The notes under the pieces: model-generated
Told to the model about the DNA's origin: nothing
Seen by the model: only the letters and a program-made list of their open reading frames with translations
Database searches by the model: none
Origin: Candidatus Endomicrobium neocapritermitis
GTDB lineage: Bacteria > Elusimicrobiota > Endomicrobiia > Endomicrobiales > Endomicrobiaceae
Length of the DNA: 64,000 nucleotides
Reading direction: 5' to 3'
Assembly: GCA_009778325.1 (NCBI GenBank)
Contig: WRJZ01000053.1
Span: 1 to 64,000, forward strand
Part shown: positions 20,802 to 64,000 of the stretch, in pieces
Numbering within the stretch: position 1 is the first letter of the stretch
Layout: each line of letters starts with the position of its first letter
Position numbers and translations under genes: made by a program

Positions 20802-20916
20802 GGCAATTACGAATGACGAATCAAAGACAAAACAAAAAAATAATTACAGATTACAATTTATTCGTAATTGCCGTTGTCGTTCGCTGTTGATTCGTCATTC
20901 GTAATTCGTAATTGTC
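20802..20916. repeat. AATTACG-armed inverted repeat
   Basis: GCAATTACGAATGACGAATC (20802-20822) pairs with GATTCGTCATTCGTAATTCG (20889-20908 and beyond). A second inner pair, AATTACAGATTACAATTTAT against ATTCGTAATTG, lies in the loop, which also holds AAAGACAAAAC like the class II core. Confidence 0.7.
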
Positions 20917-28506: not shown

Positions 28507-30783
28507 ATGAAAATGAACGGCAATTACGAATTACGAATGACGAATTATGAATCAACGGCAATTCCTCACCCTCTTGCTTCGCAAGAAGAGGCAAGGGAAA
28601 ATACTTTTTTGTCTTTGATTCGTAATTCGTCATTCGTAATTCGTAATTGCCGTTTACTCGCTTTAGCCCTGTTCCTGAGCGCGCAATGTTTCATTTCCGA
28701 TGTTTATGCGGGAAATCCATGGCCGAATGATCCTGATTTTTTAGTTGGTGTTGCGGGTCATCCAGGCAATCCAGTCTATCCATCCACAACTTTTACAGGA
28801 TATGGGCATGGTGATGCGGATATAGAAAAACAGATTCACCTGTTAGCTGAGATGGGTGCAAAAATTTACCGATTGGACTCTAATCCTCCCATAGACCAGT
28901 TGGAAAAGATAATCACACTTTGTGAAAAATACGGTATTGAACTTCTGCTGATCACCGGCGGTACCCCTTCAAGCGTAGTGAGATGGTTTAAAGGAAGAGT
29001 CAAATACTATCAGGTGGGTAACGAGATGAATCTTCAGGCGCAAAAATCTGGCAATGGAACTCAGATAAGCCATTACTGGATGTCGACAGATACAGAACCT
29101 CTGCCTGCGGATAAGAAATATTTGGATGTCATGATCAGCAACACCATCCAAACCATCAAGATAATTCGCGCGGATGATCCGGACGTGAAGATCCTGATCA
29201 ATGGAACAGGTGTACATTACGCTTTTCTTGATTATGCTTTTGAGGAATTTGCGAAAGCGGGCGTTGACATCGACCTTATCGGCTGGGACTGGTATTCCTT
29301 TATGGAAAACAACAGGACAACCCATTCTTCCGCCATAGACGGCTTGAACAGTGTCGCAAAATTTATGTATGACCGTTACGGTAAGGATATTATAATTTGC
29401 GAATACAATATGGCTCCTTCTTACTTTGATATGGTGCAGCTTAATCCGCAGCATATTCCATTTCTTCCCGGAAACGGAAACGGTATAATGGACCTTTTCG
29501 AAGAAAATAATATGGATATATTAGTGGGACCCTATTTGGTCAATAATATTCAATATTTGTATAAGAATAGAGGTGAAAATCATATTAAAGGTATTATGAT
29601 TTATGAGCTCATGGAGCAGCCGGGTCACCTCAGCCAGTGGGAAGCAAAATACGGCATAACATATGCCAAAATGCTCAATCTTAGTCAAAGACGCTATCAG
29701 ATATTGGGGCCAAAAGCAGCGTATTACCATGTCCAAAAACTCCTCGGCGGCGGTTTTGTGCCGATACAAAGATTGAATCCTTCCGTGGTAATTCCCGAAC
29801 ATACGATAACAGCGTCAGTTATAGACGAGGACACAGACGGCACAGTTCTGTCCTCGCAAGCAGGCGGCACAGTTACCGGAAGCGGTATATACCGAGAAAA
29901 CTCTGTTGTTACACTGGCAGCTGCCGCCAAACCCGGATACGAATTTCTGGGCTGGTACAGAGGCGGAATAAGAATCAGTAAAAATCCTGTTTATAAATTT
30001 ACAGCTTATGAAGACGCCAGCAATGCCGACAGAGATAGCGCCGAAGGAAAGTTTGCGTATGAAGCAAGGTATGTTTTCAGGGGCGCTTATGAAGGAGCAG
30101 TAATAACATTTCCGGTAATATCAAAAGACGGCGCTCAAAGCACCGGAATGCTGACAGTGCCTGCAAAAACATTCAGCGCGAATGTGGAAATCGATGTGAA
30201 ACAGTACAGCAAATTCATTTTAGCGCCTGCGGAATCGTATGTGAGAGAATTAAGTCATACGAATATAGGTGCGATTATAAACGCGCAGGGCAAGCCGGAA
30301 AAGGAGATGGAGCTGAAAATACCGTATAACAATTCGGACATAACCGGAATGAACGAAGACACTTTGGTGATATCAAGATATGATGAAGAAAAACAGGTAT
30401 GGGTTCCGTTAAAGTCAAAAGTGGACAGTAATAACAAACAGATAATAGCCTATATAGATAAAGTATCGATATATGCCATAATGGGAACGGCAAATGCGCT
30501 AAAAGCGTTTGAGAATATGAGATATTATCCGAATCCGCTGCAGCCGTCAAAGGGACTGAATTATTCAAAGATGAATTTTGCGAATATGCCGCCGGGAACA
30601 CACATAAAGATATACACAATGTTGGGACAAGTAGTACGAGACTTAGAAGCAGACGCAAGCGGAATGGCAGTTTGGGACGGAAAAAATAATGCAGGCGAAA
30701 AAGCTGCAAGCGGAGTGTATATAATATACATGAAAGACAGGAACGGAAATAAAAAGAGAATAAAAATAGCAGTGGAAAGATAA
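28507..30783 (+). CDS. Large secreted glycoside-hydrolase-like protein (clan GH-A type) with InlB-like and FlgD-like domains
   Basis: 758 residues as read from ATG 28507. Probable order: repeat-encoded N-terminus (1-46), hydrophobic signal core LLALALFLSAQ (about 50-60), a TIM-barrel-like region (70-430) with YYQVGNEMN (candidate acid/base E173) and DIIICEYN (candidate nucleophile E299), an InlB B-repeat-like segment (GYEFLGWYRGGI, about 475), a beta domain, and a C-terminal FlgD/sorting-type Ig domain (YPNPLQPSKG, then GVYIIYMKDRNG). TTG 28609 with AAGGG 11 nt upstream is an alternative start giving a compact signal peptide. Substrate unknown. Confidence 0.72.
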   Translation: MKMNGNYELRMTNYESTAIPHPLASQEEARENTFLSLIRNSSFVIRNCRLLALALFLSAQCFISDVYAGNPWPNDPDFLVGVAGHPGNPVYPSTTFTGYGHGDADIEKQIHLLAEMGAKIYRLDSNPPIDQLEKIITLCEKYGIELLLITGGTPSSVVRWFKGRVKYYQVGNEMNLQAQKSGNGTQISHYWMSTDTEPLPADKKYLDVMISNTIQTIKIIRADDPDVKILINGTGVHYAFLDYAFEEFAKAGVDIDLIGWDWYSFMENNRTTHSSAIDGLNSVAKFMYDRYGKDIIICEYNMAPSYFDMVQLNPQHIPFLPGNGNGIMDLFEENNMDILVGPYLVNNIQYLYKNRGENHIKGIMIYELMEQPGHLSQWEAKYGITYAKMLNLSQRRYQILGPKAAYYHVQKLLGGGFVPIQRLNPSVVIPEHTITASVIDEDTDGTVLSSQAGGTVTGSGIYRENSVVTLAAAAKPGYEFLGWYRGGIRISKNPVYKFTAYEDASNADRDSAEGKFAYEARYVFRGAYEGAVITFPVISKDGAQSTGMLTVPAKTFSANVEIDVKQYSKFILAPAESYVRELSHTNIGAIINAQGKPEKEMELKIPYNNSDITGMNEDTLVISRYDEEKQVWVPLKSKVDSNNKQIIAYIDKVSIYAIMGTANALKAFENMRYYPNPLQPSKGLNYSKMNFANMPPGTHIKIYTMLGQVVRDLEADASGMAVWDGKNNAGEKAASGVYIIYMKDRNGNKKRIKIAVER
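28515..28655. repeat. AATTACG-armed inverted repeat inside the 5' end of a gene
   Basis: GAACGGCAATTACGAATTAC (from 28515) through GAATCAACGG pairs with TGATTCGTAATTCGTCATTC and GTAATTCGTAATTGCCGTT (ending about 28655). The loop holds CCTCACCCTCTTGCTTCGCA and AGAAGAGGCAAGGG, another repeat module. The whole element lies within the reading frame of the secreted protein. Confidence 0.85.
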
Positions 30784-33449: not shown

Positions 33450-33586
33450 GGCAATTAATAATGATAAATGGTTAACGGTTAATGGTTAATTGCGGAGTGC
33501 GCGAAGTGCACCTATTTAATAAGCGAGGCAAAGCCTCGCACAATAATTTATCATTTATCATCAACCATTTATCATTATTAATTGCC
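33450..33586. repeat. Three-way-junction repeat, copy 4 (GGTTAAT arms)
   Basis: Left arm GGCAATTAATAATGATAAAT plus GGTTAACGGTTAATGGTTAA (33450-33489); right arm TTTATCATTTATCATCAACC then ATTTATCATTATTAATTGCC (33547-33586). Hairpin 1 GTGC...GTGCAC (about 33497-33511), 11-nt linker, hairpin 2 GCGAGGC-AAA-GCCTCGC (33523-33539). It accounts for most of the 306-nt gap 33365-33671; 33587-33671 shows no other feature. Confidence 0.85.
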
Positions 33587-43505: not shown

Positions 43506-43631
43506 GCAGAGTGAAGAGTGGAGAGTGAAAAGTGGAGATATTGAATTTCGGAGAAGCCGAAATCTAATTAATAGGTTTTCGCATAGCGAAAACACTTTAT
43601 CTCCACTCTCCACTCTTCAATCTTCACTCTG
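43506..43631. repeat. Three-way-junction repeat, copy 7 (GAGTGAA arms)
   Basis: Left arm GCAGAGTGAAGAGTGGAGAG then TGAAAAGTGGAGATA (43506-43540); right arm TATCTCCACTCTCCACTCTT then CAATCTTCACTCTG (43598-43631). Hairpin 1 ATTTCGG-AGAAG-CCGAAAT (43545-43563), 11-nt linker, hairpin 2 GTTTTCGC-ATA-GCGAAAAC (43575-43593). The changed G-to-A and C-to-T ends of hairpin 1 are compensatory relative to copy 1. Confidence 0.88.
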
Positions 43632-61251: not shown

Positions 61252-61280
61252 CAAAAGCAGGTTTTAATTCAACTCTTTTG

Positions 61281-61360
61281 TCATCCCCGAATGTCTTAAT
61301 CGGGGATCCAAGCAGGTTTTAAATCCTTTCTTTTGTCATTCCGCACTTGATGCGGAATCC
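61281..61360. repeat. Tandem TCATCCCCGA and TCATTCCGCA palindromes
   Basis: TCATCCCCGA...TCGGGGATCC (61281-61308) is followed by TCATTCCGCA...TGCGGAATCC (61336-61360), two short hairpins of the same family in a row, each preceded by CTTTTG. Confidence 0.65.
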
Positions 61361-61399
61361 AATTGTACGCGTGTTCATTTTAGAAAAACATTAAAAAAT

Positions 61400-61440
61400 A
61401 AAAAGCAGGACAGTTAAAAAAAACTGTCCTGCTTTTTGTA
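61400..61440 (+). terminator. Rho-independent terminator after porB
   Basis: Perfect 16-bp stem AAAAAGCAGGACAGTT (61400-61415) with AACTGTCCTGCTTTTT (61422-61437) around a 6-nt A loop, ending in a T-run. Confidence 0.88.
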
Positions 61441-61441
61441 T

Positions 61442-61470
61442 TTGTGATACTTTTTAAACTTGAGCATAGT
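61442..61470 (+). promoter_or_regulatory. Weak candidate promoter of the sigma-factor operon
   Basis: TTGTGA (61442-61447), 17-nt spacer, CATAGT (61465-61470), four of six matches each. The palindrome at 61476 would lie just downstream of the start point. Confidence 0.3.
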
Positions 61471-61475
61471 ATTTA

Positions 61476-61490
61476 TAGCAGGGCCTGCTA
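61476..61490 (+). promoter_or_regulatory. Palindromic candidate operator
   Basis: TAGCAGG-G-CCTGCTA (61476-61490) is a perfect 15-nt palindrome, with ATTTA and AAAT extending it imperfectly. It sits 25 nt before a leader ORF and 64 nt before the sigma-factor gene. Confidence 0.45.
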
Positions 61491-61515
61491 AATAATATGC
61501 GTAAAGGAGATTTAA

Positions 61516-61557
61516 ATGAAAATCGGACAAATAAATAAGGATAGGAGCCGAGCATGA
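61516..61557 (+). CDS. 13-codon leader ORF coupled to the sigma factor
   Basis: ATG 61516 with a strong AAAGGAG upstream encodes MKIGQINKDRSRA and ends at TGA 61555-61557, which overlaps the sigma-factor ATG (61554-61556). Such an arrangement would couple sigma-factor translation to that of the leader. It may be chance, but the ribosome-binding site is better than that of the sigma gene itself. Confidence 0.45.
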   Translation: MKIGQINKDRSRA

Positions 61558-62048
61558 ACTTTGAACAGACGTATAGAGAGTTCTTTAAAATAATTTACTC
61601 CTATATAATTACGCGGACGATAGAAGACAGCGTTGCCAAAGATATAGCCGCTCTTACTTGGCAAAAAGCGCTTAAAAATTTCGATACTTTCGATATAAGC
61701 AGAGGAAATATGCGCCAATGGCTTTTTACAATAGCGCGCAATGAGATAAATATGTATTACAGGATGTATTATGTAAAAAAAGTTTTATCTTTGACAGGTT
61801 TTGAGGACGCGAGCGTATCCGGTGAAAAAGGAATAGAAGAAACGCTTATAGATAATCAGGAAAAACAGCTTCTTCTTAAAGCTATGGAAACATTAAACAA
61901 GAAAGAACAGGATATAATCGCTCTTAAATTTTATTCCGGTTTAAATAACCGCCAGATAGCCGAACTTGTTAATATCAGCGAATCCAATGTCGGCACGATA
62001 ATCAACAGAGGCATGAATAAAATAAGAGTTTTTTTGGAGGTAAAATGA
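61554..62048 (+). CDS. ECF-type RNA polymerase sigma factor
   Basis: 164 residues. Region 2: KDIAALTWQKALKNFDTFDI and GNMRQWLFTIARNEINMYYR (about 33-70). Region 4: LNKKEQDIIALKFYSGLNNR then QIAELVNISESNVGTIINRG (about 114-152). No region 3, as in ECF sigma factors. TAGGAG precedes ATG 61554. Its stop overlaps the start of the downstream vWA gene (ATGA). The sigma-then-membrane-anchored-regulator order is usual for ECF pairs. Confidence 0.92.
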   Translation: MNFEQTYREFFKIIYSYIITRTIEDSVAKDIAALTWQKALKNFDTFDISRGNMRQWLFTIARNEINMYYRMYYVKKVLSLTGFEDASVSGEKGIEETLIDNQEKQLLLKAMETLNKKEQDIIALKFYSGLNNRQIAELVNISESNVGTIINRGMNKIRVFLEVK

Positions 62049-64000
62049 AAAACACGGAAAAAGAAATAATAGAACGTTTTCAAAAATTTGATTTTGACCC
62101 TGATAAAACAAAGGAAAATCAAATCTTTAATAAAATAACATCAGCCCACGCTGTAAAAAGAAGGCCGAAACGCTTGGTTTTTGCTTTTGTAGCGGCTTTC
62201 AGCGTTTTAATCGCGGTAGTTTTGATACATAAAGATAAAAATCAATTAATTGAAAGCGACAGCGGAACATATGTTCTTCAAAATGATGCTTTTCAGGGCG
62301 TTATGGTAATGAATGAAGAAGAAAAAGCGGTAACGGTAAATGTTCTTGTGGAATCAGCAGATTCAGCTATGCCAATTTCCGAGAGTCAAAAAGAAATGGC
62401 GCCCAAACGCGCAGAAGCAGAAAAGCTTAGTATCGCAGAGGAACGTCGTGCAGTCGAAGATGTTCAGAGGTTGATGAATGAAAAAGAAAAAGCGGAACCG
62501 GCAAATGTTCTTGCGGACTCAGTAGGTTCAGTTATGACAAAAAAAGAAATGGCGTCCAAACGCGAAAAAGCAAGAGAGTTTAGTATCGCAGAGGAACGTC
62601 GTGCAGTCGCTATGGCACGTGTCGAGATGGGACGTGTTTTGGCATTAAAGGCTGCTGCTGACAAGTCTGCCGCTCCTGCTGCATCCGCGAATATGAATTA
62701 TATAGGACAGGATTATAACAGTTTGCAGGACGAAAGCTATAAAAAGTACGAAGAAAATACTTTCCGTTCAACGATTTCAGATCCGCTTTCTACTTTTTCC
62801 GCTGACGTTGACGTTGCGTCATACAATATAATGAGACGTTTCATTATGTCGGGCAGTATGCCAAACCCCGATTCCGTAAGAATCGAAGAAATGCTCAATT
62901 ATTTCAATTATTCGTATCCGCAGCCTAAAGGCAAAGACCCTGTCAGCATGAACTTTGAATATACGGATTCGCCTTGGAACAAAGGCCTTAAACTTGTGAA
63001 AATAGGGGTGAAAGCCAAAGATATAAAAAAAGCCGAATTGCCGCCGAGCAATCTGGTATTTTTGATAGACGTATCAGGTTCTATGTCGCAGGAAAACAGG
63101 CTGCCTTTAGTCAAGAAATCGTTAAAAATGCTTGTTGACGAATTACGCCCCGAAGACAGGGTGTCGATAGTGACTTACGCAAGCGGCACTAATGAGCTTC
63201 TTTCAGGAGCCAAAGGCAGCGAAAAAGAAAAAATAATGCAAATAATCGATAACCTTAACGCAGGCGGCGGCACATATGGCGCCGGTGGTTTGGCTCTCGC
63301 GTATGAAGTTGCAAAAAAGAACTTTATCAGAAAAGGCAATAACAGGATAATTCTTGCTACGGACGGCGATTTTAATATCGGGCCCAGCTCGGAAAGCGAG
63401 CTTGAAAATCAAATAGTCGCGGCGCGCGAGTCGGGCGTATTTCTAAGCGTATTGGGTTACGGTATGGGCAACTATAAAGATTCAAAAGTGCAAACGCTTG
63501 CCAATAAAGGCAACGGCAATTATGCCTATATAAATGATTTGTTTGAAGCAAGAAAAACGCTTGTAAAAGAGTTTGGAGCCACTTTGTTTACCGTTGCCAA
63601 AGACGTTAAATTACAGGTAGAGTTCAATCCCGCTTATGTAGCTGCGTACCGCCTTGTAGGTTATGAAAAAATAGCTCTTAATACGCAGGATTTTAACGAC
63701 GATAAAAAAGATGCCGGTGAAATGGGCGCAGGGCATACCGTTACGGTAATCTACGAAATTATTCCGGCCGGCGTTGAAAGCGAGTTTATGCCGGATATTG
63801 AATCGCTCAAATACACTAAAGTTGCCGCTTCATCTGATAACGGCGATGTCTTAACGCTCAAATTGAGATATAAAGATCCGGATTCCGACACAAGCAAACT
63901 TATGGAAAAACAGCTGAAACAAAAAGATTATGTTCCGTTTAGCAAAACATCCGACGATATGCGTTTTGCCGTAAGCGTCGCGCAATTCGGGCAAATAGTT
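62045..64000 (+). CDS. Membrane-anchored vWA protein, YfbK-like, with possible anti-sigma N-terminus (3' end beyond window)
   Basis: 652 codons open to the window end, with no stop. ATG 62045 (GGAGGT upstream) overlaps the sigma gene's stop. Residues 1-43 are cytoplasmic (NTEKEIIERFQKFDFDPDKT), then a membrane helix (RLVFAFVAAFSVLIAVVLIH, about 44-63), a charged linker with a 51-residue in-frame tandem repeat (SIAEERRAV twice), a YfbK-type N-domain (STFSADVDVASYNIMRRFIM) and a vWA domain with MIDAS DVSGSMS (from residue 342) and ATDGDFNIG. The short N-terminal part in this position may bind the sigma factor; that is inference. Confidence 0.85.
   Translation, partial: MKNTEKEIIERFQKFDFDPDKTKENQIFNKITSAHAVKRRPKRLVFAFVAAFSVLIAVVLIHKDKNQLIESDSGTYVLQNDAFQGVMVMNEEEKAVTVNVLVESADSAMPISESQKEMAPKRAEAEKLSIAEERRAVEDVQRLMNEKEKAEPANVLADSVGSVMTKKEMASKREKAREFSIAEERRAVAMARVEMGRVLALKAAADKSAAPAASANMNYIGQDYNSLQDESYKKYEENTFRSTISDPLSTFSADVDVASYNIMRRFIMSGSMPNPDSVRIEEMLNYFNYSYPQPKGKDPVSMNFEYTDSPWNKGLKLVKIGVKAKDIKKAELPPSNLVFLIDVSGSMSQENRLPLVKKSLKMLVDELRPEDRVSIVTYASGTNELLSGAKGSEKEKIMQIIDNLNAGGGTYGAGGLALAYEVAKKNFIRKGNNRIILATDGDFNIGPSSESELENQIVAARESGVFLSVLGYGMGNYKDSKVQTLANKGNGNYAYINDLFEARKTLVKEFGATLFTVAKDVKLQVEFNPAYVAAYRLVGYEKIALNTQDFNDDKKDAGEMGAGHTVTVIYEIIPAGVESEFMPDIESLKYTKVAASSDNGDVLTLKLRYKDPDSDTSKLMEKQLKQKDYVPFSKTSDDMRFAVSVAQFGQIV

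Follow-up and report, generated by a model that had tools for sequence, protein, structure and literature searches.

How is the sigma factor controlled in a locus where an ECF sigma gene, preceded by a palindrome and a 13-codon ORF, overlaps the gene of a large vWA protein? The locus lies at the end of the window, by which we mean the whole stretch of DNA analysed; it covers bases 1-64,000 of a contig 121,301 bases long in a 2.38 Mb genome (G000). We consider it probable that the locus encodes an autoregulated ECF sigma / membrane anti-sigma switch with a predicted regulon. Gene order, gene overlaps, promoter conservation and co-occurrence, and the conserved N-terminus of the partner were read from the sequence. 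The features are as follows.

61398..61439, + strand: terminator-like intrinsic hairpin that separates the sigma-vWA operon from the oxidoreductase genes upstream
61444..61470, + strand: predicted ECF promoter, GTGATACTTTT-N9-GCATAGT (-35 part 61444-61454, -10 part 61464-61470), presumably recognised by the sigma factor of the operon
61476..61490, no strand assigned: 15-nt dyad TAGCAGGGCCTGCTA, close to where transcription is predicted to start
61503..61509, + strand: Shine-Dalgarno-like AAAGGAG of the leader ORF, by eye
61516..61557, + strand: 13-codon leader ORF, MKIGQINKDRSRA followed by a stop that overlaps the sigma start (ATGA)
61543..61547, + strand: Shine-Dalgarno-like AGGAG of the sigma gene, within the leader ORF, by eye
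61554..62048, + strand: ECF sigma factor, 164 aa, from the ORF list, Pfam and solved relatives
62045..62173, + strand: predicted cytoplasmic anti-sigma segment, vWA protein residues 1-43, two helices predicted
62174..62233, + strand: predicted membrane helix, vWA protein residues 44-63, hydrophobic by eye and a low-confidence region of the model
62234..62725, + strand: variable low-confidence linker, residues 64-227, with direct repeats D1/D2, from sequence comparison and the model
62726..64000, + strand: predicted extracytoplasmic part with vWF_A, VWA and the start of YfbK_C, from Pfam; the gene ends at contig position 64135

Downstream of the hairpin the order is predicted promoter, dyad, leader ORF, sigma gene, vWA gene. 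The palindrome, the ORF and the two gene overlaps had been described in the earlier note and were confirmed. The palindrome has two perfect 7-nt arms (TAGCAGG and CCTGCTA) around a single G, and both junctions are of the ATGA type (leader TGA 61557/sigma ATG 61554; sigma TGA 62048/vWA ATG 62045). The earlier note had placed control of the pair in the leader ORF and the palindrome and had overlooked the promoter at 61444-61470; by sequence comparison the predicted promoter is the best-supported element, and the weight shifts to it. No sigma-70 type promoter was found between 61200 and the sigma start. The two upstream genes resemble subunits of a 2-oxoacid:ferredoxin oxidoreductase, with matches below curated cut-offs. 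A 33-nt intergenic repeat, present in two copies, lies 3' of these genes (61255-61342).

The promoter motif was found by comparing sigma loci, and GTGATACTTTT-N9-GCATAGT is probably an ECF-type promoter that is autoregulatory. When at most one mismatch was allowed, 15 sites were found in 7/76 genomes of the family, and the reversed control gave sites in 0/76. The sigma factor (E<=1e-20) was present in the same 7/76 genomes, a co-occurrence with a Fisher p of 4.6e-10 that is not corrected for kinship and spans only 3/14 genera. In a scan of 41 genomes, sites with 0-1 mismatch were confined to the six that bear the sigma factor, and the other 35 had only sites with 2-3 mismatches, at about the control frequency. 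At <=3 mismatches 33/41 genomes matched, about as often as with the control, so looser matching is uninformative. The genome of the window, searched with up to three mismatches, has four sites, each with at most one mismatch. One belongs to the window operon and another to a paralogous sigma-partner pair; the remaining two precede genes for a VIT-domain protein and for a small protein whose N-terminus is signal-like. The paralogous pair lies 33 kb away and has a sigma factor 84% identical to that of the window:

contig C53:94103-95937 (L039 14104-15937): second sigma-partner pair, partner of 403 aa, no vWA domain found

Because this pair has the same promoter, either of the two sigma factors in the genome could read any of the four sites.

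For the position of the sites we counted 16, i.e. the 15 sites with at most one mismatch and the sigma site of G001, which has two. All 16 sites, in seven genomes, precede a correctly oriented gene: eight sigma operons, six genes for VIT-domain proteins, one for a serpin (PF00079, E 8e-95, in the single genome G003) and one for a small protein of exported type. Export of the targets was judged by eye from their N-termini. The second VIT site of G001 is at a contig end, whose last 77 nt are identical to the start of the contig bearing the gene. Five of the six VIT targets were scanned and matched VIT, TPR-like and DUF2135 domains; the sixth, G001 C56, shares 84% identity with the VIT protein of the window's genome. 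None of the five scanned targets had a vWA match up to E 10, so a vWA domain common to sensor and output was rejected. Altogether nine copies of the VIT protein were found in seven genomes, six with the promoter and three without, the latter being those of G004 and G005, which have no sigma factor, and a diverged second copy in G002. No VIT-protein match was found in the sigma-bearing genomes G003 and G018 (70% and 87% complete). Neighbouring genes at L079 4155-4856 and at L037 720-1319 and 2595-3029 encode look-alike small proteins with signal-like N-termini, and one of them has the promoter.

The sigma factor matched Sigma70_r2, Sigma70_r4 and Sigma70_r4_2 above the Pfam cut-off; it has regions 2 and 4 only and no region 3, as expected of an ECF sigma factor, and the relatives found among solved structures are ECF sigma factors. 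Seven named loci have a sigma factor at 77-89% identity, six of them in Endomicrobium/Endomicrobia MAGs. The seventh, L090, is an Endomicrobium-like sigma-vWA locus on a contig filed under a Clostridiales MAG, and this contig is likely misbinned. No relative of the sigma factor was confirmed in viral contigs. YfbK_C was found in 20/247 Elusimicrobiota genomes searched, five of those being in Endomicrobiaceae. A diverged version of the promoter-like element, TGTRATAC ... GCRWATA, precedes the sigma gene in 12/12 sigma-YfbK loci of other Elusimicrobiota families, so the autoregulatory site appears to be old. Family-specific patterns gave exactly one site per genome in 13/13 genomes (7 + 6). Twelve of these 13 sites precede sigma genes of the scanned loci, and the 13th (G217) also precedes a sigma gene; as the patterns had been derived from these very sites, their single occurrence is a measure of specificity and not a discovery. 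The larger target set was seen only in Endomicrobiaceae genomes.

The complete vWA protein has 696 aa and extends past the window. The vWF_A, VWA and YfbK_C matches are all above the Pfam cut-off, as for a member of the YfbK family, and the vWA domain contains the motifs DVSGSM and TDGD, which we take to be MIDAS-like. Residues 1-43 and the hydrophobic helix are common to nine Endomicrobiaceae-type partners. Over these residues the identity to the window protein is 24/43 to 41/43, while the linker is poorly conserved, with 15-27 matches in 78-144 aligned positions. No Pfam vWA domain was found in 3/8 complete partners (G023, G081 and the second partner of G000); the ninth partner, from G002, is cut by a contig end, and a YfbK_C match lies on a separate G002 contig. 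The partners of G023 and G081 are nevertheless 41/43 identical to the window protein over residues 1-43. Because the segment and the helix persist in partners in which no vWA domain was found, residues 1-43, with two predicted helices, are likely the anti-sigma domain. Comparison thus supports the proposed pairing of the ECF sigma factor with a large vWA protein that has a single helix and probably binds it through residues 1-43. The vWA domain, suggested in the earlier note as the sensor, may still have that role; it would not be essential to the switch, since it was not found in those three partners. Two direct repeats of 67-69 nt (62309-62609; spacings of 165 and 153 nt, whole codons) suggest a duplication in the linker.

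An AlphaFold model of the vWA protein was made from 16 alignment rows and had a mean pLDDT of 71 (39 with 9 rows). It places helices at residues 5-13 and 22-39, with block means of 71, 74 and 80 over residues 1-30, and a helix at 44-63, where confidence is low (block means of 50-58 over residues 41-60). The class I anti-sigma domain needs at least about 50 residues and forms a three-helix bundle with a fourth helix (PMC7406223, available text). Here only 43 residues with two predicted helices precede the hydrophobic helix, a length and fold that do not fit class I. In the class II (CnrY-like) domain two helices embrace sigma2 and sigma4; two helices are likewise predicted here, but no sequence match was found. 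The two modelled helices are consistent with, and not proof of, a CnrY-like domain. A search of solved structures with the N-terminal profile returned no known anti-sigma chain and gave hits at chance level only.

In the proposed switch we infer topology, export, binding, inhibition, release and transcription. The vWA protein would be anchored in the inner membrane, and the two helices of its first ~43 residues, on the cytoplasmic side, would keep the sigma factor inactive until a ligand, force or cleavage changes the extracytoplasmic part and sets the sigma factor free. Once free, the sigma factor would read the predicted promoter and increase expression of its operon and of a small group of exported proteins: the VIT-domain proteins and, in one genome each, a serpin or a small exported protein. 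At this locus the leader ORF would probably do no more than pass ribosomes from its stop codon to the start of the sigma gene by translational coupling.

The pair could also be read differently, with the vWA protein a mere effector cotranscribed with a sigma factor that is regulated in another way, such as through its synthesis alone. YfbK homologues do occur without a sigma factor directly upstream, in 3/5 annotated plasmid regions and in 1/13 Elusimicrobiota loci (L131), but an ECF sigma gene is directly upstream in 12 of those 13 loci, all scanned outside the family in a set that did not take in L144 (1,253 bases) or G191, whose YfbK matches are three divergent pieces, and the N-terminal segment stays with the sigma factor where no vWA domain is found; we regard the effector role as unlikely. 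Control by the leader would be of another kind. Translation of the 13-codon ORF would sense amino acid supply or the state of the ribosome and set sigma synthesis, the palindrome being part of an RNA switch. The ORF has a Shine-Dalgarno-like site, and its 13 codons and ATGA overlap are kept in 4/9 Endomicrobiaceae-type loci, the window locus included. To this extent the leader is conserved, but it is absent from the other 5/9. At 12/12 distant sigma-YfbK loci 4-42 nt separate the end of the -10 part from the assumed sigma start (that of L132 is probably a later ATG, by inspection), so there is no room for a 13-codon ORF with its own Shine-Dalgarno site. The four leader copies differ at 11/42 positions, and 2/11 of these are third codon positions, as against 110/181 in the sigma gene (Fisher p 0.009). 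The substitutions are not coding-like and, in these small numbers, give no sign of peptide selection. Neither does the leader contain a run of one codon kind, and its RNA shows no unusual folding at the window locus (z -0.4). An attenuator calls for a conserved peptide or codons together with alternative RNA structures; the leader was supported neither as an attenuator nor as a selected peptide, and we hold this kind of control to be very improbable.

The dyad has to be weighed separately, as the operator of a separate repressor acting over the transcription start as a second input. A dyad with arms of at least 7 nt at the tested positions has P=0.0039, judged from 200,000 random 40-nt windows of related DNA in which coding and non-coding sequence is mixed. 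Dyads with arms of 4-7 nt, centred 12-14 nt after the -10 part, occur at 6/9 sigma loci compared with 15% at random (binomial p 7e-4, the loci being related). Within the window, five palindrome sites with <=3 mismatches were found where 1.17 were expected, and 1/100 shuffles reached five; only one of the five is exact. Against an operator, the letters of the dyad differ among loci, the dyad of G081 resembles the common AATTAC repeats of its genome, and arms of at least 4 nt were found in 0/7 target promoters tested. The search for the palindrome beyond the locus, which had been proposed as a check, gave no second exact copy in the genome, and the two further sites, with two mismatches each, equal the reversed control in number. 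On this single exact copy a genome-wide operator was rejected, and a local one appears quite improbable. With this copy number and the ordinary folding of the leader RNA, the palindrome did not hold up as the element that controls the pair, and the leader ORF and palindrome look like local extras. We keep the sigma / anti-sigma switch as the preferred reading.

Like the pair Tt-RpoE1/Tt-TolB of Thermoanaerobacter tengcongensis, which is the best architectural precedent, the window locus has an ECF sigma gene followed directly by the gene of a large single-helix protein (Tt-TolB has ~645 aa). According to the available text of PMC3397946, residues 1-39 of Tt-TolB bind the sigma factor in a two-hybrid assay, its membrane helix spans residues 39-61, and Tt-RpoE1 transcribes its own gene. 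Unlike here, the outer part of Tt-TolB is TolB-like and not vWA/YfbK, the promoter is tGTTAC-N16-CGTC, and the genes are 2 bp apart and do not overlap (PMC3397946). Plasmid pairs of Rhizobium (R. etli and R. johnstonii) are also similar. There the sigma gene and the gene of a YfbK-like vWA protein overlap by 4 nt, and a segment precedes the outer part. To the eye, neither the sigma factor nor the N-terminal segment of these pairs resembles that of the window, and the promoter motif was not seen upstream. Of 148 plasmid records with a match, six were inspected; the sigma gene overlaps the vWA gene in 2/5 annotated regions and not in 3/5, the L162 region having no annotation. No report on the function of the Rhizobium pairs was found in the accessible part of the literature.

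By sequence comparison the locus appears to belong to the known ECF sigma / membrane anti-sigma kind, and its vWA/YfbK outer part and predicted regulon may be new. Among the papers listed, none dealt with a vWA/YfbK anti-sigma factor, which is weak evidence of novelty in a search that reached only a minority of subscription papers, and none is described in the available portions of PMC3188799, PMC3174227, PMC6180224, PMC12826043 and PMC8103513. The same search gave no study of this type for the phylum, and the locus offers a concrete, testable promoter and regulon for an Elusimicrobiota sigma factor. It also makes anti-sigma sensing a candidate role of vWA/YfbK proteins, and partners that naturally have no vWA domain and keep the 43-residue segment can be compared with the vWA-type partner to find where the sigma factor binds. 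Since two sigma-partner pairs of this genome share the promoter type, and the ~43-residue segment is joined either to vWA/YfbK or to outer parts with no recognised domain, it is conceivable, though rather doubtful, that two signals feed one regulon. On the same tentative reading, one sigma module with exchangeable outer sensors could govern exported VIT proteins, and a serpin in a relative, as a surface-protection response of a gut symbiont.

The VIT domain of the six predicted targets is named after inter-alpha-trypsin inhibitor proteins, and in a Foldseek search with the model of the vWA protein, heavy chain 1 of this inhibitor (6fpy, 6fpz) came at ranks 5-7, after vWA proteins of ArnA/B and other types, with E-values of 2.0e-14 to 6.5e-14, a TM-score on the query of 0.32-0.33 and an rmsd of 8.9-10.7. 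The likeness is one of common domains and not of function.

Strong hairpins occur in some of the 16 target leaders (z -9.0 for the G000 VIT gene, -8.6 for the G001 VIT gene, -6.5 for the G003 serpin, -6.0 for the G003 sigma gene and -3.3 for the G000 small protein). They were rejected as a shared signal, since 10/16 leaders have |z| <=0.5 and one has -1.0, and similar inverted repeats lie elsewhere in the window, as judged from the best 5 of 14 pairs; we treated them as dispersed repeats. Such long self-complementary repeats, of the GAGTGAAGAGTGGAGAG and AATTACGAATTACG types, are found at 43507-43631, 28516-28654, 33450-33586 and 20805-20906, and the same types form the strong hairpins in the G000 VIT, G001 VIT and G003 sigma leaders.
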